A stretch of DNA of 64,000 bases from Lineolata rhizophorae (Eukaryota; Ascomycota; Dothideomycetes; Lineolatales; Lineolataceae). Made by a program: the position numbers and the translations under genes. The stretch lies in assembly GCA_010093515.1 (NCBI GenBank), contig MU001682.1:677196-741195 (forward strand), given 5' to 3'. Below, in pieces: positions 347 to 59,673 of the stretch (positions are counted from its first letter, which is position 1; every line of letters begins with the position of its first letter). The notes below the pieces were generated by a model. It saw only the letters and a list, made by a program, of their open reading frames with translations, did no database searches and was not told where the DNA came from.

Positions 347-808
347 GCTTTAGTCCAATGGCATTGTTGTCTCATCAGGACTCGATGGCTTTCCTTTGTG
401 CAATGTTACATTGTTTCCATGCCATGCCCCTCTCACAGCGGAAATTGGACAATGGGTACCCGCACGTCGTCAAAACTGCCTATATTTTGCTTGTTCCTTA
501 TTACTCCGGTCATTGTAGATCTGTCATTTGCCTATTGCCTAGCAATGGGTCGACTTTGTTCCCGGAACTGCGCGTTGTGGTACAATGCTTTTGAAAATTG
601 CGGTCATATATATATCGCAGAAAGCTTTCGAATTGTAATGGAGCACGCCCTCAAGAGGTGGTTGACACCTACCTCACCTGTACAGTTGAACGTAACCGTT
701 TCTGCGGTGCAGCATTACCAATGCGCTCCTAGCTGCTCAAGGACAATAACCCCTGCTAGACAATATACTCCGCGTGCAACTAGGAATATCCATGCGGGGG
801 TTATTGGT

Positions 809-21305: not shown

Positions 21306-22785
21306 TCAGGCGCCCCCGGCTATGACCCCATTTAGAATTTTAATCTGTTCCAACACTGCATGCTTGCTCGTGCCTCCCACCGCATTCTTCATCTCAACGC
21401 TCCTCTCATAATCAAACACGCTTAGCACGTCATCACCAAAGCGCTCGTCCACGGCCTTCAATTGCCCCAAACTAAGCTTGTCCATGGGAATGTCCTCGTT
21501 CTCCGCCAGCGCCACCACCCTGCCCGCAATGTGATGCGTTTCCCTAAAGGGCACTCCCTTCCTGACCAAGTACTCGGCGAGGTCCGTCGCCAGCATATCC
21601 GGCGTGAGGGCGGCGAGCATCTTGTCCGGGAACACCGTCAAGGTCGCCAGGACCCGAGCTGCGATCTGCAAGCTGTCCTTGAGCGTCTTGACGTGCTCGA
21701 GCATCGGCTCGACGCTCTCCTGGAGGTCCTTGTTGTACGTCATGGGGGTGCCCTTGACGCTCATCATGAGGCCGGCCATCTGGCCGAAGACGCGGCCGCA
21801 CTTGCCCCGCAGCAGCTCGAGGCTGTCGCAGTTCTTCTTCTGTGGCATCAGCGAGCTGCCCGTAGTGTAGGCGTCGGCGAGGCGGACGAAGCCGAACTCG
21901 GCCGTGCTGTAGCAGATGAGATCCTCGGACCAGCGGCTGACGTGCAGCATGAGGGCGGCGCCCCACTGCATGGCCTCGATGATGAAATCGCGGTCCGCGA
22001 CGGCGGCCATGCTGTTGGGCACCAGGCCGTCGAAGCCCAGCTCGGCGGCCATGGAGGCCCGGTCGATGTTGAAGGCGTTGCCCGACAGCGCGCCGCAGCC
22101 CAGCGGGCTCTTGTTGACGTGGCGGATCACGTCGCGCAGGCGGTCCAGGTCGCCGGCGAAGAAGGCCCCGTACGACAGCAGCCAGTGGCTCCAGCGCACC
22201 GGCTGCCCGCGCTGCAGGTGCGTGTAGCCGGGCATGACGAAGGCGACGTCCTGCTCGGCGCGGATGGCGATGGCCTTCAGCAGGTCCACCAGCAGCGCCT
22301 CGACCTCGCGCAGCGCGTCGCGCAGCCACAGCCGCAGGTCCGTCGCCACCTGGTCGTTGCGGCTGCGGCCCGTGTGCAGCTTGCCGGCCGTGTCCTTACC
22401 GATTATCTCGCCGAGGCGCCGCTCGTTCGCCGTGTGGATGTCCTCGTCGACGCCCGGGTTGATGGCGAACGTACCGGCCTCCCATTCGGACCGGACTTGC
22501 TGGAGCCCGGCCTCGATGGCGGAGAACTCGGAGGGCGTGAGGATGCCGGTGGCGACGTTGGCGCGCGCGTACGCGATCGAGCCCGCGATATCTTGCGCGT
22601 AGAGCGCGCGGTCGAAGTGGATCGATTCGTTGTAGGCCATCATCAGCGAGTCGATTTCGCCTGATGTGCACGATTCGTGTCAGCTGGGGATGTAGTTCTA
22701 CGGACGGGGCTGCCTGACCCGTGAAGCGGCCGCCCCAGAGCTTGCCCGAGGCGGCGTTCGAAGGTGGCTGTTGTTCTGAAGCCAT
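21306..22785 (-). CDS. ARG4: Argininosuccinate lyase
   Basis: Two exons (22785-22719, 22660-21306) with a 58-base intron give 473 residues, the normal family length. The small first exon ends in KLWGGRFT and the junction restores RFTGEIDSLMMAYNES. The fumarase/aspartase superfamily motifs are present: TGRSRNDQVATDLRLW, GYTHLQRGQPVRWSHW and the signature GSSLMPQKKN with the catalytic-loop Ser. The enzyme splits argininosuccinate to arginine and fumarate, the last step of arginine synthesis. The loop after the signature reads CDSLELLRGKCGR, with Cys at two places. ADE13 elsewhere in this window is a member of the same superfamily. It shares an upstream region with ADE8. Confidence 0.97.
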
Positions 22786-23780: not shown

Positions 23781-24446
23781 ATGCCCGCATCTGTCCCCAT
23801 CACAGTTCTCATATCCGGCAACGGGACCAACCTGCAAGCCCTCATCGATGCGTGCGCCTCCGGCTCCCTCCCCGCCCGCATCGTGCGCGTGATATCGAAC
23901 CGCAAAGCAGCCTACGGCCTGCATCGCGCGTCCTCGGCCGGGATCCCGACGGCGTACCACAACCTGGTCGAGTACAAGCGCAAGCATGGCGAGGGCTCCA
24001 TAGATCAGGCGCGTGAGGCCTATGACGCGGACCTGGCGTCGCTAGTCCTGGCCGACTCTCCCGCGCTCGTCGTCTGCGCGGGCTTCATGCACATCCTGAA
24101 GCCGGCGTTCCTGGAGCCGCTGAGGGCCGCGGGCGTGCCGGTGATCAACCTGCATCCGGCGCTGCCGGGGCAGTTCGAGGGCGCGAACGCCATCGAGCGC
24201 GCGCACAGGGAGTGGAAGGCCGGCAAGATAGGCGAGACGGGCGTCATGGTGCACTATGTGATTGAGAAGGTGGACGCGGGCGAGGTGATTTGCTCGGAGC
24301 GGATCCCGTTTGTGGAGGGGGGGGACGATGAGCTGGAGAAGCTCCAGGAGCGCTTCCACGAGGTCGAGCACGGCATCATTGTCAAGGGGACGCGGATGGC
24401 GATCGAGCGGCTCCAGGAGAAGGAGGCGGGAGGAAAGCAGCCTTGA
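23781..24446 (+). CDS. ADE8: Phosphoribosylglycinamide formyltransferase (GAR transformylase)
   Basis: An intronless frame of 221 residues. It has the PurN fold throughout: ITVLISGNGTNLQALIDA at the N-terminus, VVCAGFMHILKPAFLEPL in the middle, and the active-site segment VINLHPALPGQFEGANAIE. There Asn and His are the family catalytic residues, with the partner Asp in VDAGEVI. The enzyme transfers a formyl group from 10-formyl-THF to GAR, step 3 of purine synthesis, in the cytosol. The length is usual for fungal ADE8. ADE13 and an AIR synthetase domain lie 15 and 30 kb further on. Confidence 0.96.
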   Translation: MPASVPITVLISGNGTNLQALIDACASGSLPARIVRVISNRKAAYGLHRASSAGIPTAYHNLVEYKRKHGEGSIDQAREAYDADLASLVLADSPALVVCAGFMHILKPAFLEPLRAAGVPVINLHPALPGQFEGANAIERAHREWKAGKIGETGVMVHYVIEKVDAGEVICSERIPFVEGGDDELEKLQERFHEVEHGIIVKGTRMAIERLQEKEAGGKQP

Positions 24447-38796: not shown

Positions 38797-40759
38797 ATGT
38801 CCGAGAACGATATTTACCAAACTCCGTAAGCGGCCTGGACTTTTTCTTGGTGCCCTTTTTGCGTTTGGCCCCATTGGGTTTTTTTAGCTTTGCCTAAAGA
38901 ATTCTCTTTTCCGGATTTGGCGCAAGTGCCTCACCGAATTTTGCTTTTCGTGGTTTCGTGGCGATGTTGGAGAGTGCAGAATTAGGCCGAGAGTAGTTGC
39001 TCGGGGCCGGGTCTCAACAGTTTGTCTGAAGACTTTGGCTCATAATAACTTCATTAGTTTTAAAACATGGCAGAGTTGACTGCTTTTTGTCCAGATTTTC
39101 CTTAACTTGTCTGCTGGGAAACGTTTTGTTAAACCTTCATTTAAATGGTTGACAATTTAGGCATGACTAATGTTTGAACAGACTCAACTCGAGATATGCG
39201 AGTAGGTCCTGGATGATAAAATGGAATAGAACATTGAGGTAACTGAAATCTCAGGTTTGCCTATGAAACAGTTGTTCTCCGCGAGGACACGGTTTTCAAC
39301 ATGGCGCAAGCTCTGGATCTGGCTGGCCGAGGCGGAGAAGGAGCTCGGCCTCAAAATCACAGACGAGCAAATCGAGCAACTGCGCGCACACGAGCAAATC
39401 ACGGACGAGGAGTTCAAAACCGCCGCCGAAGAGGAGAAGCGTAGACGGCACGATGTCATGGCCCACGTCTACGCGTTTGGCCAGGTGGCGCCAACGGCCG
39501 CCGGAATCATCCACCTCGGCGCCACGAGCTGCTTCGTCACGGACAACGCGGACCTGATTTTCCTGCGCGATGGCCTGGACATCTTGTTGCTCAAGCTTGC
39601 CAAGTGCATTCGCAACCTCGCAGAGTTCGCCAAGCAGCACCGTGCTCTGCCTTGTCTCGGTTACACTCACGGCCAAGCTGCGCAGCTCATTACGGTGGGC
39701 AAGAGGGCCTGCTTGTGGATTCAAGATCTTCTCATGGATCTTAGGAATCTCGAGCGCGCTAAGCAAGACCTCCGATTCCGTGGATGCAAGGGGACGACTG
39801 GCACGCAGGCTTCGTTCCTTCAGATTTTCAACGGCGATCATGGAAAAGTTGAGCGCTTGGACGAACTGGTGACGAAGAAGGCGGGCTTTGCAGATGCATT
39901 TACGATCTCGTCCCAGACTTACAGCAGGAAAATCGATGCTGATGTGATCAACTATCTGGCCTCTTTCGGAGCGACCTGTGAGAGGATCGGAGGTGATATC
40001 AGGCACTTGGCTATGTAAGCACCCACCTCTCTTACCGGTGGTGAACTCGTACTGACTTCATCAGGATGAAGGAAATCGAAGAGCCATTCGAGAAGGACCA
40101 AATCGGCTCGTCCGCCATGGCATACAAGCGCAACCCCATGCGCTCCGAGCGCATGTGCAGCCTCGGGCGCCACCTGCAGACCCTCCCCGCCAACGCGCTG
40201 CACACGTATTCGGCGCAATGGTTCGAGCGCACGCTCGACGACAGCGCCAACAGGCGCATCACGATCCCCGAGGCCTTCCTGACCGCCGACGCGTGCTGTC
40301 TGATCCTCGACAACGTCTCGAGCGGCCTGGTCGTCTACCCTAAGGTGATCAAGAGCAGAGTGGACCAGGAGCTGCCGTTCATGGCGACCGAGAACATCAT
40401 CATGGCGCTGTGCGACCACCACAACGTCAGCCGTCAGGACGCCCATGAGGAGATCAGGGTCCTGTCGCACGAGGCCGCTCAAGTTGTGAAGGGCCAGGGC
40501 GGCGCCAATGACCTTACCGAGCGCATTCGCAAGTCGAAGTTCTTCGAGCCGATTCATGGCGAACTGGACAAGTTGCTTGATGAGCATACGTTTATTGGAC
40601 GCGCGCCGCAGCAGGTGGATAGGTTTACAGGTAAGGATCCCAAGATCTGTGTGTTTGAACGGAACTGACGTCCTGGTAGCTCCTGGTGGGGAGGTGGAGC
40701 GTGCTGTGGCTCCCTATGCGGAGAGGACTTCCGGTGGCAAAGTTGACCTTCATGTCTAA
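38797..40759 (+). CDS. ADE13: Adenylosuccinate lyase
   Basis: Five exons (38797-38825, 39182-39201, 39255-40014, 40065-40630, 40680-40759) keep phase and give 484 residues, the usual length. The first two exons are only 29 and 20 bases. They encode [10 protein letters not shown] and LNSRYAS, exactly the conserved N-terminus, and are separated by a 356-base intron. The 20-base exon has a good branch site before it (GACTAATG) and GTAGGT after it. The body has the superfamily motifs [31 protein letters not shown] and the signature [14 protein letters not shown]. The enzyme acts twice in purine synthesis, releasing fumarate from SAICAR and from adenylosuccinate. It is cytosolic and homotetrameric in the family. 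Confidence 0.95.
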
Positions 40760-43598: not shown

Positions 43599-45926
43599 AT
43601 GCCGCGCAAAACGCGTGCAGCCCTCCGCGCCCAGGAAATCCTCGCCGACGAGCCTGCCGGCGACGAGACTGCCCACGACCTCTTCGGCGCGTCCACCGCG
43701 ACAGAGCCCGAGACCCGCGTGCCGCTCAAGAACGTCGAGCTAAACGTTGTCGCCGTCGCCGCTTCGCCGACCCCAGACGACATGGCCGCCTCGACGACGA
43801 CGAAGAAGAGCGCCAAGGGCAAGAAAGGCAAGGCCGGCGGGCGCAAGGGCAACCAGAACAAGGCGGCCGCGGCGGACGAGCAGGCGCCAACCGCGAGCAA
43901 CGAGGAGGTGGTGGAGGAGCCCGCGGCCGTGGTGGAGGACGAGGACAGGGCGCCGGCGTCGCCGGCGTCGGACGAGGCGGCGGAGGGATTGAAGAATGGC
44001 AAAGGTAGGGTGGGCGCGATTTCGGCGGCCTACGACTCGCGCGCGACGTTAAGAGGCTAACACATTGGCGTGGACGCAGACGATGCGGTGAAGCCGCCGG
44101 CCGAGGACGAACGAGCTGCGTCGGCGTCGGATCGCGCCGTGCGCAAGACGAGGCGTCAACTGGCGAAGGAAGCAGAGGCCGCGGCCAAGCAGCGAGAAGC
44201 CGACGCCGCAGCTGCCGCCGCCGCTCCGGCTTCTGCCGTGGCTACCACCTTCGCATCCGGGCCAGCCGAAGAGGCCACAAGCGCCGCGCTCTCGCCGCGC
44301 GCCGAGATCCAGGCCGCAGACGACGCCACGATGCTCGCCGCACACGCGGAGGTCCCTGCCTTGGCGGCCGCCACCGTCACCACCAGCCTCGACGAAGCCG
44401 GCGCGGAGCCCTCCCAACTCCTCCCGCCGGGCACGACCGCGCCCGCCGAGCCCAAGTCGCCCGCCAGCGTGCGCACCGCCGCGGCGACGCCGTCGCCGTC
44501 CTCGCGGCCCCGCGGCGCGCCCCGCCCCGAGGACTCCATCGAGGCCATGGACCGGCTTGAGGACGCGCTCGAGGAGATCGGCCGCGCCCTGCCCGAGCTC
44601 GAGTCGCCCAAGCCGCCCGCGAAACACAGGAGGCGCGCGCCGGAGGAAGGCGGCAACAAGACGGCCACGGCCGCCGCCGCCGCCGCCGCCGCCGCCGCGG
44701 GCCCGCTGCAGCAACAGACTCAGCAGCACCAGCACCAGCAGAACCATCACCAGCCCCAGCAGCACCAGCACCAGCACCAGCACAAGCCGAAGCCCCAGCC
44801 CACCCGCCACGCCGCCCCGGCGGCGCCCCAGAAGAGCGCCGCGCCGCGCGCTTCCGGCGGTGCCCCGGGCGCGAAAGCGGGCCCCGCCCTGGCCCGCTCG
44901 CAGAGCGCGCGCGCGGCGCCGGCGCGGGGCCCCGCGGCGGTCGGCGCGCGCGACAAGGCGACGGCGGCGGCGGCGGCGGCAGGACCCAAGGACGGCAACG
45001 GCAGCGGCGCCGAGGTCGCCAGGGAGGGCGGCAGGCCGGCGCCGGCCGACTACCTGGCCTCGAGGCGGCGGCCAGTGTCGCTGTCGTTTGCGGCGCCGGG
45101 GCCGGCGCCGCGGAGCGGTAAGGCGTTGACGAGGCCGGCGTTCGCGCTGCCGGGGGAGGCGGTGGCGGCGAGGTTGAAGGCGGCGAGGGAGGAGAGGGCG
45201 AGGAGGGAGGGGGAGAGGGAGAGGGAGAGGGAGAGGGAGAAGAAGGGGGACAGGGAGAGGAAGGGCGGCGTGGGAGGGGGTGGCGGAGCAGCGGGGGCTG
45301 GTGTGGGCACGGCGTTCAAGGCCAGGCCCGCGCCGGCGCAGAGGCGCGAGCCGGTCGTCAAGCAGACGGCGAAGACGCTGGCGCGGCAGAGCATGCTGGG
45401 CGGGGGGGAGCGAGAGGGCGAGGTGGCGGCGGCGGCGGCGGCGGCGCCCCCCCAGCAGGCCGGCGTGAAGCGCGCGTCGTCCACGTCGCTGAACAAGCGC
45501 TCCTCGACGCTGCCGAACCGCGCGCCGGCCGCCACGACGACAACGGGCACGACGACGTCGTCGTCGTCGCAGGCCTCGTCGTCGGCCACGGCCACGGCCA
45601 CGGCCACGGCCACGGCCGCCCAGGCGGCCGCCAAGCCCGGCCCCGTCACCAAGTCGCAGCTGACGCCGGCGGACGTGACGGCGCAGCGGGCCAAGGCGCG
45701 GCTCATCTTCAACCGCGACCGGCAGGAGAAGGAGGCTCGGGAGAGGCAGCGGAGGGAGAAGGAGGAGGCGGCGAGGAGGGCGAGGGCGGAGGCGGCGGAG
45801 CGGGGCAGGTTGGCGAGCAGGGAGTGGGCGGAGAGGCAGAGGAGGAAGATGGGCGGGGTGGGGGAAGGAGGGGAGGGCGGCGGGCGGGGCGGAGGGGAGG
45901 GGAGGCAGGGCGGGGGAGGAGGGTGA
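43599..45926 (+). CDS. Low-complexity hypothetical protein with charged C-terminal helix
   Basis: Two exons (43599-44004, 44080-45926) give 750 residues. Almost all of the protein is low-complexity: Lys/Gly runs near residue 75, long Ala runs, a Gln/His-rich tract (QQQTQQHQHQQNHH near residue 345), Arg/Glu repeats and Ser/Thr runs. The recognisable parts are two charged helices, RRQLAKEAEAAAKQREAD near the start of exon 2 and KARLIFNRDRQEKEARER near the C-terminus. The latter is a motif I associate with a Pezizomycotina-specific family of unknown function. The splice junction (GGCAAAG/GTAGGG to GCAG/AC) and branch site GGCTAACAC are good. It may be a scaffold or cytoskeletal protein, but nothing shows this directly. 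Confidence 0.7.
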
Positions 45927-46791
45927 GACGGACACGGCGGTAGAAGCGTGAGGGTGTGTTTGTTGGCGGGGAGCTGGAGGCGTGGTAAAAGGGACCTGGG
46001 TCTTGTTATTTCTAGTCTTCTCGATGAAGCGTGTGTGTTTTGGCGTTTCTATTTTGTCATCGTGGAGGCCCCTTGTGCTGACATCCTTTCAGTCTTGATC
46101 GGGAACCTGGGAATCTGGTTTGGCGTCTTCTTTAGCTTGTCACTTCTCCCGCACGTAGACTGGAGGCGCGCCGTCGACTCCGGTCTGCCCAAGGGCGAGT
46201 GTCTTTGACTGTACGCATGTGTTCGGGATGTGTTGAGAGGACTTGGCTGAGGAACCTGTCCCGGATCGTGTTTTGCCCTGGCTTTTCCTGGACGTGTAAT
46301 TGAGCTCCTCTGTTATGTATTGTCGAGTCTCGAGGAGTGCTGATACCATGGGCAATTGATAATCAGTACATTAAGAACAGAGTCCGTGTCGGATGGGGGG
46401 CCCTGGAGCGGTGAACAATGAACGGAGTAGCGCTGCCGCGATAAACAGCATCCACAGGTAACCGAATAAGCACTCTACGCAGTGTTGCGCATTCCCGACT
46501 TGGCCAAAAGGGGCCCTGGGGAGCTGATCGCGGGCCGTTTTATTGCCGCCGCCGGCGCATTCCGCGCCCTTTGTCATCACACGCCGCCGGTCGACTGAGG
46601 CTGCATCGCCCGCGCGCCCATTCGCTCGGCAGCGGCGCGCCGGGCGCTCCGCCCGCGCCCACTCGACGCCGTCATACCTCAGCGCGAGGCTATAATTGCA
46701 CGCGGCTCGCTCCACCACGCTCCTCACGACGCCTCGCTCCCGCATATCCTTCTTGCGCCCTGGGGCTTCGCACGCTCGGACATCGCCCGCC

Positions 46792-52479: not shown

Positions 52480-53746
52480 TCAGAGCTTCTGCCCCTCCAC
52501 AGGCACCTCCACGATCTGATCGATGCCCTCGTACGGCGGCAAATCCAGGCCATACTTCTCCGCCATAGCGGGGCTCAAGAACCTGCAAGACCGTTATCGT
52601 CAGCACTCAAATCCGAATCCTCGCCCCACACCCTCAACCCCCCGGCACCCTCACGCCGCACGCATCCCGCACACCCTCGTCTCCAAAAGCGGCAACCAGC
52701 TACCCCCGCAATTCCAAATCCGCCCCCTCCCCTCCGCATCCAAGCAAACCGTGTCATGTATCCACACCGACAAGGCCGCAAGCACTCACCTGCCGCCGAC
52801 GAAATGCCTGCCCCCGAACCACTTGACCAACGGCTTGGGGGCGGTCAAGCTGACGAGGGCCTGGGGATGGAAGGCCTTGCCGGGCCCGTCGGGCGGCGGG
52901 CCGCGCTCGATGTCCCACGAGCTGGGCGCGTCGACGGAGAGCACGGGCACGGGCGCGGCGGCCAGGGCCGCGATGACGGCCGGGAACGGCTCGCGCACCT
53001 CGCCCGCGAACGAGAAGCCGAAGACGGCGTCCACGACGTGGTCCGTCTGCGCGAGCGCCGCGCCGAAGTCCTGCGCGAACGGGATGTCGAGGGCGTGCAG
53101 TTGGGTGGTCAGGCGCTGCGGGGAGCGCGGACGAGGACGAGGTCGACGCCGTTAGTTCTGCGGCGCTCGCGGGCGTGCGTGTGTGCGCAGAGGAGGGCCC
53201 GACGGTACCTGGTAGAGCTCGTTCTTGCTCTGCTTCGGGTAGTACATGGTGGGCTGGTATCCGTAGTGCCACAGATGGCGGGCGGCGACCAGGCCGTCGC
53301 CGCCTGTTTGCGCGTCGGGCCCGGCCGGGCAGTTCCCGTCAGCATCTGGCACCGCCGCAATATACGGCCGCAATCAAACGCCACGTGTGCGTGTGTGTGT
53401 GTGTATGCGCCCGGTATACAGGGTTCCTTCGTACCGTTGTTGCCCGGTCCGCACGCGACCAGGATGCGGCGCCCCTTGTTGAGCGGCTGCAGCTTGTGCA
53501 CTGCGGGACCTTCAGTTAGGCGCGCGCGCGGGCCGGCGGCGGTGCTGGAGGCGTACCCGCTTGCGAGACGGAGAGGCCGGCGAGCTCCATGAGCTGGTCG
53601 ATGGAGAAGGCGCCGGCGCTCATGAGCTCCTGGTCGAGCGCGGCCGAGCTCTTGGCCGAGAGGACCTGGGGCGGGCGTGGTCAGCGCGAGGAGCGGTGAT
53701 GGTGGCGGGCCGGATAGGACCGCGCGGGACTCACTCGCAACGCCAT
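52480..53746 (-). CDS. NAXE: NAD(P)H-hydrate epimerase (YjeF_N family)
   Basis: Six exons (53746-53735, 53665-53557, 53500-53435, 53303-53209, 53115-52790, 52582-52480) keep phase and give 236 residues, close to the yeast protein. The first exon is only 12 bases (MALR). Family motifs in order: [38 protein letters not shown] (shown in part), [51 protein letters not shown] and the end [14 protein letters not shown]. The enzyme interconverts R and S forms of damaged, hydrated NAD(P)H so that the companion dehydratase can repair it. It may act in cytosol and mitochondria. It is divergent to the homoserine kinase-AIR synthetase gene across 489 bases. Confidence 0.93.
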
Positions 53747-54235: not shown

Positions 54236-56420
54236 ATGGCCGCGCGCTCCTTCACGATCCGCGCGCCCTGCTCGTCGGCCAACATCGGCCCTGGCTTCGA
54301 CGCCATCGGGCTCGCGCTGTCCATCTACCTGACGCTGCACGTCACCATCGACCCGGCGGCGCCGGCGCCGTCGCCGCACCCGCTCAACTGCGCCATTGCG
54401 TACGAGGGCGAGGGCGGGGCGGCGGCGGTCAGCACGCGGCCGGACGAGAACCTGGTGACGCGCGTGGCGCTGTACGTGCTGCGCTGCCACGACGTGCGCG
54501 CGTTCCCGCACGAGACGCGGCTGCGCATCGCCAACGCGATCCCGCTGGGCCGCGGGCTGGGGTCGTCGGGCGCCGCCGTCGTGGCCGGCGTCGTGCTGGC
54601 CGACGAGTGCGGCCGGCTGGGGCTGCCGCGCGCGCGCATGCTCGACTTCTGCCTCATGGTCGAGCGCCACCCCGACAACATCGCGGCCGCGCTGCACGGC
54701 GGCTTCGTCGGCACCTACCTGCGCGAGCTGGACGCCGCCGACGGCGAGCGCCTCGAGATCCCGCTGTCCGAGGTGCTGCGGCCGGCGCCGGCCGGCGGCG
54801 TCGACACCGGCCTGCGCCCGCCGGCGCCGCCCTTCGGCATCGGCCACTACCACCGCTTCCGCTGGGCGCCCGAGATCCGCTGCATCGCCGTGATCCCGCA
54901 GTTCGAGGTGGCCACGGCGAAGGCGCGCGCCGTGCTGCCGGCCCACTACGCCCGCGCCGACCTCGTGCACAACCTGCAGCGCATCGCGCTGCTGCCGACC
55001 GCCCTGGGCCAGTCGCCGCCGGACCCGGACTTCATCTACCTCAGCATGCAGGACCGCGTCCACCAGCCCTACCGCAGGGCCCTCGTGCCCGGCCTCACCG
55101 AGATCCTGCAGTCCATCACGCCGCGGAGCCACCCGGGCCTGCTGGGCATCTGCCTGTCGGGCGCCGGCCCGACCATCCTCGCCCTGGCCACGGCCAACTT
55201 CGACCTCATCGCCGGCCACCTGGTCGCCCAGTTCGCCAAGGAGAACATCGACTGCAAGTGGGCGCTGCTGGAGCCCGCGCTCGACGGCACCACCGTGTCT
55301 CGTCCCGGCGACGACCACGACCACGACCACAACCATCACGACGACCACGACCACCACGACGTCGTCCCGGCCCAGGAGGCGGCCGAGGAGCCAGCGGAAC
55401 AAGGGACGAGAGAGGCGCTCACGTACGCCGCCGCCGGCGTGTCCATCGACGCCGGCAACGCTCTCGTCGAGGCCATCAAGCCGCTCGTGGCCGCGACGGC
55501 GCGCCCCGGCAGCGCCGCCTCCATCGGCGGCTTCGGCGGGCTCTTCGACCTCGCCGCGGCCGGCTTCGGCCCCGGCGCCCCGCGCCTCGTCTGCGCCACC
55601 GACGGCGTCGGCACCAAGCTCAAGCTCGCGGCCGAGCTGGGCCGCCACGACGCCGTTGGCGTCGACCTGGTGGCCATGAACGTCAACGACGTCGTCGTCC
55701 AGGGTGCCGAGCCGCTGCTCTTCCTCGACTACTACGCCTGCGGCGCGCTGGACGTGGGCGCGGCCGCGGGCTTCGTCGCCGGCGTCGCGCGCGGCTGCCG
55801 CGACGCCGGCTGCGCCCTCGTCGGCGGCGAGACGGCCGAGATGCCCGGCCTCTACGCCGGCTCCGACTACGACGCCGCCGGCACCGCCGTCGGCGCCCTG
55901 CGCCCCACCGACACCCTGCTGCCCGACACCCCCGCCATGCGCCCCGGCGACGCCCTGCTCGGCCTCGCCAGCTCCGGGCCCCACGCCAACGGCTTCAGCC
56001 TGATCCGCCGCGTCGTCGAGCGCGCCGGCCTGAAGCTGACGGACCGGGCGCCCTGGGTGGAGCCCGAGCCCGAGGCCGCGGACGGCGAGACCAAGGACGA
56101 GACCGCCGCCGTCTCGGTCGGCGAGTGCCTGCTCGCGCCGACGCGCATCTACGTCCGCGCCGTCCGCGCGCTGGCGGCGCGCGAGGGCTTGCTCAAGGGC
56201 GCGGCCCACGTCACCGGCGGCGGGCTGCTGGACAACGTGCCGCGGATGCTGCCGGCGCATCTGCGGGCGGAGCTGAGGGCGGGCGCCTGGGAGGTGCCGG
56301 GAGTGCTGCGCTGGCTGAAGCGGGAGGGAGGGGTGAGGGCGGAGGAGTTTGCGAGGACGTGGAATGCGGGCTTGGGCATGGTGGTGGTGGTGGGGGAGGG
56401 GAGGGTGGAGGAGGCGAGGG
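54236..56420 (+). CDS. THR1: Homoserine kinase fused to AIR synthetase (PurM), C-terminus in gap
   Basis: One frame without stop or clear intron gives 728 visible residues before the N run. Residues 1 to about 352 are a complete GHMP kinase of the homoserine kinase family: SSANIGPGFDAIGLAL, the ATP loop PLGRGLGSSGAAVVAGV (about 103-119), VERHPDNIAAALHGG and LSGAGPTILALA. It phosphorylates homoserine for threonine synthesis. A His/Asp-rich linker (359-375) follows. From about 394 an AIR synthetase starts: TYAAAGVSIDAGNALV, ATDGVGTKLKLA (about 453), LVGGETAEMPGLY (about 528), SSGPHANGFSL, LLAPTRIYVR and HVTGGGLLDNVPRMLP. It closes the imidazole ring in purine synthesis. No ATG occurs between the domains, so the second has no start of its own. 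In fungi this domain is normally part of ADE5,7 behind GAR synthetase, which is absent here. The last 30-60 residues are unseen. Confidence 0.88.
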
Positions 56421-56600
56421 NNNNNNNNNNNNNNNNNNNNNNNNNNNNNNNNNNNNNNNNNNNNNNNNNNNNNNNNNNNNNNNNNNNNNNNNNNNNNNNN
56501 NNNNNNNNNNNNNNNNNNNNNNNNNNNNNNNNNNNNNNNNNNNNNNNNNNNNNNNNNNNNNNNNNNNNNNNNNNNNNNNNNNNNNNNNNNNNNNNNNNNN
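56421..56600. other. Assembly gap (180 N)
   Basis: A run of 180 unknown bases interrupts the end of the AIR synthetase domain. The last readable residues (GLGMVVVVGEGRVEEAR) lie about 30 residues before the usual end of the family, so the stop codon probably lies inside the gap. If the N count were exact, the frame would run on to a stop at 56621-56623. Confidence 0.98.
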
Positions 56601-57162: not shown

Positions 57163-59673
57163 ATGGCAGACAAGGCGCACTTCAAGACGCGCGTCGTGTC
57201 CGTCGTCGCCGCCACCACCATCTCGCTGGCCTGCGGCACAAACGTACGTTTGCTTTCTTTTACCCCCTTTGCCCGTTTGCGCGGTCATAGGAGAGGGGCG
57301 ACTGGCATGCTTCCGAGGTTCGGCGGGGGGGCTATGAACGACATGGCTGGCGCGCTTTGGAAACCCTGGAGCTTGCGGCTGGCATGGTGATGATGATGGA
57401 GAGGATGGTGCGCTGACGACGAGACGATACGCAGTACGCTTACTCGGCATGGGGCCCGCAATTCGCCGAGCGCATGAAGCTGTCGGCTACGCAGAGCAAT
57501 TTGATCGTGAGAACGCCATCTTCTCCCCTGCCGGCGCGCGATGCTACGTGCCCTCCGCACTCTTCCATCCGAACCATGCACCCCGGCCGAACACACCGAA
57601 GCTTAGCAGCTAATACCTGGCCGCTGTCGTGAACAGGGCGCGGCTGGCAACGTCGGCATGTACGCGTCGGGCATCCCCGTCGGGCTGCTGGTCGATTCGA
57701 AAGGGCCGACGCCGTCGGTGCTGCTGGGCTCCATCGCGCTGGGCGCGGGATACTTTCCGATCAAAAAAGGTACGGCCGGAGTGGGCGGATCGAGCAAAAT
57801 GGATACAACTCGAGTCCGAAGCCCGGAAGAGATTTGCCACACGTGGGTGCTGATACACGAACTGTGCTGTGGCAGCGTTCGATGGCGGGGCTGGCTCGAT
57901 GAGCGTGTCGCTCTTGTGCTTCCTGTCGTTCTTGACCGGCATGGGAAGCTGCGCGTCCTTTTCCGCGTCAATAAAAACGAGTACGTGCCCGTTCCACGAT
58001 CTCGTCTACTTCGCATCTGCATCGTTTTTGCTCATGAGGAACTTTCCAACAAACTCAGGCGCCCTCAATTGGCCGCACCACCGCGGCACGGCCACCGGTC
58101 TCCCGCTCTCCGCCTTCGGCCTCTCGGCCCTCTTCTTCACCCTCATCTCCCGCCTCGCCTTCCCCGACGACACGTCGAATCTGCTATTGTTCCTTGCCAT
58201 CGGCACTTTTTGCATGGTCTTTGGCGGCATGTTCTTCCTGCGCGTGGTGCCGCAGCCGCAGACGGCGTACGCGGCGCTACCCACGAGCGACTCGGACGTG
58301 TCGGGCGTCGAGAGAGGGTTCAGACGAGACTCGAACCGGCTGAAGCGGACAAAGTCGGGCGGGAGCAAGAGGAGTTTGGCAGGGAGTGCTCAAGGTAAGC
58401 TCTAGCCACGATTTCCTATTTCCATCTGGTGGCGTTCCACTGCGTTGGCTCGTCTTGTGTTATCATCTACCCTTTTTCATTATTGCCTGCCCCTCCTCTC
58501 TATGGCGGAGCACAATCGGCCGACGACGCGCTCGCGCATAAAACTGCAGATGATCCAGCCGCGCCCGATGATCGTGAGAATGTGACTGTCGTCCCGGCCG
58601 CCGGCGACGACTTGGACGAGAGGTCGTCACTCATGTCGAAGTCGTCGTCGGGCCCGGGCGACATCGAGGCCGACGAGCGACCCGCCGGCAAGAGCACCCA
58701 CTCACACAAACCAGATGTCACAGGGCTGGCCCTGCTCAAACATCTCGACTTCTGGAAGCTGTGGGTCATGATGGGCCTGTTGACGGGTGTTGGTTTGATG
58801 ACGATTAAGTGAGTTCATGCCCTAGTATATCTGCTTGAATTGCGGCTGTGTTTGCTGATCCCGGTGATGCCTGTTTTTACCAGTAATATTGGAAACGATG
58901 TGAGTTCGGCAGCCGTTAGAGACAGTTTTGAGATTGGTTTACTCATGAAGAGAATCTTAGGTGAACGCTTTGTGGAGCCACTACGACGATAGTGTGTCCA
59001 AATCCTTCATTGTCGAGCGCCAGCTCGACCACGTCACCATTATTTCCCTCATGAGCTTCATCGGGCGCCTTCTCAGCGGTACGTCTGTGCATCCAGCCCT
59101 CCTCCTCAACAAGCTACTCATATCTAACCAACCCCTTTCCGTCCCAAACCAGGCATCGGCTCCGACCTCCTCGTCAAGCGCCTCCACCTCTCCCGCTTCT
59201 GGTGCGTCATCACGTCGGCCTCCATCTTCGCGGGCGCCCAACTCGTCGCCATCAACCTCCTCAACCCGCACCTCCTCTTCTTCCTCTCGGGCCTGACGGG
59301 CCTCGCCTACGGCGTCCTCTTCGGCGTGTACCCGGCGCTCGTGGCCGACGCCTTCGGCGTGGCGGGCCTCAGCCTCAACTGGGGCTTCATGACGCTCGCG
59401 CCCGTCATCTCGGGCAACGTGTTCAACCTGTGCTACGGGGCCTTCTTCGACGCGCGCAGCGAGCGCGAATCGGGCGGGAAGCCGGGCGATGAGGGCAAGG
59501 GCCAGGGAGAGCTGGTGTGTAGGGATGGTAGGGAGTGCTACAGGCAGGCGTATGTGGTGACGTTGGTGAGTAGCGTGGTGGGCGTGGCCGTGGGGTTGTG
59601 GTGCGTGCATCATGAGTGGTCGGTGAGGAGGAGGCTGGAGAAGGAGGAGGAGGAGGAGGCGCATAGGGCGTAG
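57163..59673 (+). CDS. Nodulin-like MFS transporter
   Basis: Nine exons (57163-57243, 57435-57506, 57637-57769, 57876-57980, 58059-58394, 58511-58808, 58884-58899, 58961-59078, 59153-59673) keep phase and give 559 residues. The N-terminal ISLACGTNYAYSAWGPQFAE (exons 1-2) is the signature of the Nodulin-like MFS group. It is followed by GNVGMYASGIPVGLLVD, a central acidic/Ser-rich cytosolic loop of about 120 residues, and a second six-helix half that begins LLKHLDFWKLWVMMGLLTGVG and INNIGNDVNALW. Exon 7 is only 16 bases. Yeast YMR155W and Mch1 are distant relatives, and a vacuolar or plasma membrane monocarboxylate-like role is possible but unproven. The exon 6 acceptor is GGCGGAG rather than CAG, chosen on phase and lack of alternatives. 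Confidence 0.87.

Follow-up and report, generated by a model that had tools for sequence, protein, structure and literature searches.

To our knowledge, a bifunctional protein uniting GAR synthetase (GARS) and AIR synthetase (AIRS) is general in fungi and animals. In Candida albicans a single gene is listed as GAR synthetase/AIR synthetase (PMC5488104). Enzymes from different pathways are joined in the basidiomycete SPDS-SR chimera, a single-copy fusion of spermidine synthase and saccharopine reductase, from the polyamine and lysine pathways respectively (PMC10051792), and this precedent shows that cross-pathway fusions can be kept by fungi. The locus analysed here lies in a window of 64,000 nucleotides from a draft assembly of Lineolata rhizophorae. 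Its open reading frame (ORF) resembles the fungal ADE5,7 gene in that AIRS again forms the C-terminal half of a two-enzyme chain, but it carries a homoserine kinase (HSK) where ADE5,7 has GARS, and searches of the assembly found no GARS. The locus shares with SPDS-SR the character of a single-copy fungal one-chain fusion across two pathways; the chimera, however, has the backing of ORF cloning and of a survey that covered more than 80 fungi, whereas HSK-AIRS is backed by one draft assembly and involves other enzymes.

An ATG at position 54236 opens a plus-strand frame of 728 codons that is free of stops up to an assembly gap at 56421, and which encodes, in order, a complete HSK, a linker and a near-complete AIRS (PurM) domain (Table 1). 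The gap hides the last ~20 positions of the PurM model (313-332) together with the true stop codon. The original prediction, that a complete HSK is followed by a near-complete PurM in a single open frame, was borne out, as both halves score above curated cut-offs and no stop separates them.

Table 1. Features of the HSK-AIRS locus and its surroundings, and positions of purine-pathway genes on the contig that contains the window (C13)
Feature	Position in window	Position on C13 (kb)	Strand	Basis
ADE8 / PurN (GAR transformylase)	23799..24413	701-702	+	TIGR00639 182 bits, over cut-off
ADE13 / PurB (adenylosuccinate lyase)	39260..40626	716-718	+	exons 39260-40015, 40066-40626, TIGR00928
Upstream neighbour, divergent, YjeF_N (NAD(P)HX epimerase-like), several exons	52480..53550, bounds approximate by reading		-	PF03853 on 52786-53148
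Homoserine kinase half (THR1/ThrB-like, GHMP kinase)	54236..55300		+	TIGR00191, PF00288, PF08544, conserved columns
Linker, 37 codons, Asp/His then Ala/Glu-rich, imperfect GACCAC array	55301..55411		+	tandem repeats, codon composition
AIR synthetase (PurM / AIRS) half, cut by assembly gap	55412..56420	733-734	+	TIGR00878, PF00586, PF02769, conserved columns
Run of 180 N, taken as assembly gap, over end of AIRS half	56421..56600		.	sequence
Downstream neighbour, transporter-like (Nodulin-like), several exons	57163..58402, bounds approximate by reading		+	PF06813 on 57854-58402, likely start ATG
IMP dehydrogenase		384-386
SAICAR synthetase		448-449
PurA		612-614
PurL		614-618
GMP synthetase		619-621
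ADE2		625-626
PurF		647-648
PurH		818-820

The HSK half was recognized by the NCBIfam profile thrB (TIGR00191) with 311.8 bits against a cut-off of 168.25, residues 6-355 aligning with model positions 1-302 of 304, and by the Pfam families GHMP_kinases_N (PF00288) and GHMP_kinases_C (PF08544). It matches 45 of the 50 columns that are invariant among all nine prokaryote ThrB loci compared, departing from them at I17, G112, I149, I267 and C306. Also conserved are the E-R-HPDN stretch and a nucleotide loop rich in glycine and serine (PLGRGLGSSGAA). Like stand-alone THR1 or ThrB, the domain is complete and exceeds the TIGR00191 cut-off, but in the ORF its C terminus is extended by a linker and then by an entire second enzyme. 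The AIRS half scores 345.2 bits with the NCBIfam profile purM (TIGR00878; cut-off 236.35), residues 395-727 covering model positions 1-312 of 332, and contains both Pfam subdomains, AIRS (PF00586) and AIRS_C (PF02769). It retains 72 of the 80 columns that are invariant among 10 reference PurM loci, which were picked out of 40 fetched from viral contigs. Over the common region its identity is 54.1% to PDB 7lvp, 50.6% to 5vk4 and 49.8% to 9jzw; we take 5vk4, 9jzw and 1cli to be stand-alone PurM proteins of bacterial origin. With such stand-alone enzymes it shares ~50% identity (5vk4 and 9jzw counted) and nearly all conserved columns, but in the ORF the domain sits behind HSK in one chain. Direct reading revealed an L-x-D-x-APW stretch that is common to the AIRS half and 7lvp and absent from the three other chains compared. 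The AIRS half is likely to derive from the host's own ADE5,7.

The argument for a joined gene rests on two full domains lying 111 bp apart in the same frame, neither of them truncated at the join, and less on the missing stop codon. The forward frames contain no stop between 55250 and 55676, but this is weak evidence because the GC content of the ORF (74-77%) makes open frames cheap. When the ORF was shuffled by mononucleotides the longest stop-free run had a median of 263 codons, reaching at least 727 in 1 of 500 shuffles, and shuffled linkers were open in frame in 73% of 5,000 cases. A chance frame was rejected for both domains by their curated scores, although the openness of the linker alone stays weak evidence. 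The expectation that the linker would lack an ATG was upheld on the plus strand, where none occurs in 55250-55450; the next, at 55676, is in frame and falls within the conserved AIRS fold, such that initiation there would cost the first 88 AIRS residues. A crude consensus scan for the branch-point-like motif YTRAY was negative across 55250-55450, a region that also holds two weak donor-like sites and two CAG sites.

The linker itself is rich in Asp, His, Ala and Glu, and its imperfect GACCAC array extends over ~55311-55361, tandem repeats being called at 55311-55354 and 55314-55361. No long repeat was seen at the join, where the best one measures 22 nt (91% identity), any lost sequence being unsearchable; by direct reading, the linker contains no recognizable trace of a GARS C terminus. 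The third-position GC content (GC3) of the linker is 0.838, compared with 0.992 for the HSK half and 0.976 for the AIRS half, the two halves being the highest of 17 chosen segments (0.60-0.94 for the others). For the remaining purine genes of the contig, the segments measured lie at 0.60-0.88. A compositional neighbourhood common to the HSK and AIRS halves is therefore possible. Of the 38 codons in 55298-55411, 7 end in A or T, against 10 among the 690 outside this stretch (p = 8e-6 by Fisher's test, for a region chosen after looking), and this odd composition is compatible with DNA that was once non-coding, with a relaxed linker or with a false join.

Searches were extended to the whole assembly, which comprises 30.97 Mb (30,968,845 bases) in 48 contigs. 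The purM profile found one place, the AIRS half of the ORF. Over the same 31-Mb assembly the thrB profile found a single locus above cut-off, the HSK half, its second match (21 bits over 55 model positions) being far under the threshold. The assembly yielded no other PurM and no other HSK over cut-off, so the ORF is not a spare copy. It had been proposed that the AIRS half could be a moonlighting duplicate of the ADE5,7 half; this was rejected, because the searches found neither a second PurM nor a further HSK over cut-off. An intact ADE5,7 elsewhere in the genome was likewise not found, as no GARS domain was detected.

Searched at E <= 0.01, the whole assembly gave no match to GARS_A, a family that this search did recover in 13 of 14 control genomes; since the genome search scores best candidates only, the absence is strong but not absolute. 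The purD profile returned a single match of 32 bits, the translation of which reads as the biotin-carboxylase part of pyruvate carboxylase, and a query with E. coli PurD returned that place again together with a 19-bit match of 78 residues in another ORF. A diverged GARS was rejected as the explanation of these matches, because the 32-bit place reads as pyruvate carboxylase and the 19-bit ORF does not read as GARS. Of the 12 purine-pathway activities sought, 11 genes (AIRS included) are present and GARS alone was not found. PurL, PurN and PurF were found by the same method that missed GARS, and six enzymes of a seven-enzyme E. coli query were matched, including PurK/PurE, PurH, GMP synthetase, IMP dehydrogenase and PurA, PurC being unmatched. 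SAICAR synthetase was located by a separate search, and PurB is also present; the identifications of IMP dehydrogenase and SAICAR synthetase come from one search each. The proteasome family, used as a completeness control, gave 24 matches that group into 14 distinct loci, which is presumably the number to be expected. Since AIRS and the other purine enzymes are conserved, purine synthesis, and with it a need for GARS, can be presumed in the organism. The absence of GARS most likely lies in the assembly. Within ~260 kb (the window and 20 further stretches) there are gaps of 180, 1060 and 1540 N, and a GARS domain of 1.3 kb could be hidden in an assembly gap elsewhere.

For every one of the 11 purine-pathway genes found there is a copy on C13, the contig of the window (C13:677196-741195), which accounts for 1,036,171 bases of the assembly (3.3%). 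PurA, PurL, GMP synthetase and ADE2 lie within 14 kb. By comparison, the 14 proteasome loci occupy 10 contigs, with 3 of the 14 on C13. The chance of ten further genes landing independently on C13 is ~2e-15, by simple arithmetic done after the fact. Both PurB exons in the window score highest with TIGR00928 (231 and 164 bits), neither reaching by itself the 326 bits set for the whole protein. At 274 bits, the strongest single match to PurB lies on C24, not C13, weaker lyase matches occurring on C9 and C13. The C24 sequence (C24:396845-398116) is a second adenylosuccinate-lyase-like gene, a single open frame of 441 codons that scores below the curated cut-off. The PurF search gave an extra weak match of 38 bits on C20 which, like the C24 gene, speaks against a strict confinement of the pathway to one contig. 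An argininosuccinate lyase-like gene (Lyase_1 and ASL_C2; 21309-22679) adjoins PurN. Also in the window is a 2-kb tract at 44001-46000 with 76% GC and an AT skew of 0.39, in which a reverse-strand ORF of 679 codons matched no Pfam family at E <= 1e-4. Rfam at gathering scores matched nothing in the whole window. Its neighbourhood suggests that the AIRS half is at home on C13, HSK being the newcomer or neighbour.

In filamentous ascomycetes genes stay on one chromosome while their order is shuffled, a pattern termed mesosynteny (PMC3219968). A survey of fungal metabolic clustering reports that nucleotide-metabolism clusters are over-represented in Saccharomycotina, and that lipid and amino-acid genes are those over-represented in clusters of Pezizomycotina (PMC4256263). 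The gathering of purine genes on one fungal contig is undescribed among the literature matches listed, as judged from titles and the beginnings of abstracts. On the same material, drawn from a limited open-access literature, the matches listed include no protein that joins threonine and purine synthesis, in line with the original prediction that none had been described. When the AIRS half was compared with viral contigs, HSK was present in none of the 40 PurM loci in the DNA around them, and in a prokaryote scan PurM was absent from the flanks of all nine ThrB loci. The HSK half gave two pattern matches to viral contigs, neither of which was confirmed.

It could be argued that the ORF is the product of assembly: from a tandem or falsely joined THR1 and ADE5,7, the assembler or gap closer would have dropped the GARS half together with the spacer and the THR1 end, so that the tail of HSK came to meet the GARS-AIRS linker. 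This explanation is a serious contender, to which we give appreciably less than an even chance. The attraction of such an event is that it covers both oddities, the missing GARS and the HSK-AIRS join, in one step: GARS alone of the 12 activities is missing in an assembly that retains all 14 proteasome loci and, with GARS and AIRS forming one chain in fungi, the missing piece belongs exactly at the join. The locus is also of a kind that is hard to assemble, being a GC-rich gene that ends in a gap, the smallest of the three noted above, and the short GACCAC array sits at the join itself. The codon use of the linker is unlike that of either half, and chance alone would give a linker open in the right frame in roughly one case in four (one third multiplied by the 73% of open shuffles). 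A false join, however, requires that both breakpoints hit short, non-conserved stretches, in frame and leaving the domains whole. It also requires either that THR1 and ADE5,7 stood in tandem on one strand or that two equally GC-rich loci formed a chimera. The lack of a long repeat and of any recognizable GARS remnant in the linker likewise counts against it. For a real fusion it can be said that the domains are essentially full length and joined in frame at domain boundaries, that a best repeat of 22 nt is short for a repeat-driven false join, that the two halves have the most extreme GC3 of the 17 segments compared, and that conserved columns are kept in both halves while the other purine-pathway genes are present.

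Two further explanations appear improbable to us, and to much the same degree. The GARS half could truly have been deleted between THR1 and AIRS in the sequenced strain, leaving an in-frame HSK-AIRS in a purine-requiring organism, and the presence of AIRS and the later steps in the absence of a detectable GARS would agree with this. Such an auxotroph, however, would depend on outside purines, and the conserved columns kept by AIRS, together with the normal scores of the other pathway genes, match what ongoing selection for purine synthesis would be expected to maintain. Alternatively, HSK and AIRS might be made apart through splicing, an alternative start or processing, in keeping with the different composition of the linker. 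The linker, however, offers neither a forward-frame stop, a plus-strand ATG nor a YTRAY motif, and a start at 55676 would remove part of the conserved fold. We lean slightly towards a real fusion over an assembly artefact, the two readings being close; the weights given to these, and to the other explanations that take up the rest, are judgements and not computed values.

The ORF is tentatively read, at close to even chances, as a real single-copy gene for a bifunctional HSK-AIRS protein. In the proposed rearrangement the breakpoints would lie near the 3' end of THR1 and within the GARS-AIRS linker of ADE5,7. ADE5,7 would have been split and its AIRS half placed behind THR1, while the GARS half would survive elsewhere in the genome and be absent from the draft by accident. 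The HSK half would convert homoserine and ATP to O-phosphohomoserine in the threonine pathway, and the AIRS half would convert FGAM and ATP to AIR, the imidazole ring closure at step 5 of purine synthesis, the two being tied by a flexible acidic and His-rich linker. The sequence shows two conserved domains in one open frame; we infer that a single mRNA is made, that both domains are active, that the rearrangement took place and that GARS is encoded outside the assembly. As both enzymes use ATP but share no common intermediate, substrate channelling is unlikely, and joint expression in a fixed ratio is to be expected. Threonine aldolase converts threonine to glycine, which is a substrate of GARS, and a metabolic tie of threonine supply to purine synthesis through glycine is therefore possible. 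The fuller proposal, in which one co-expressed HSK-AIRS protein from a broken ADE5,7, encoded amid gathered purine genes, is the sole source of a threonine step and a purine step, is held with rather less than even confidence.

Currently the two favoured readings differ in what they would mean. If the join is an artefact, a clean, in-frame and domain-perfect 'fusion' in a GC-rich draft can accompany the loss of an essential domain, a problem exposed here by checking the whole assembly for the missing domain, and hence a useful warning. If the fusion is real, the GARS-AIRS arrangement would have been broken in this fungus, and two pathways without a common intermediate would be tied together. 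With one PurM and one HSK over cut-off in the assembly, selection should act on both halves of the protein, and the ORF looks to be the single copy for both functions.
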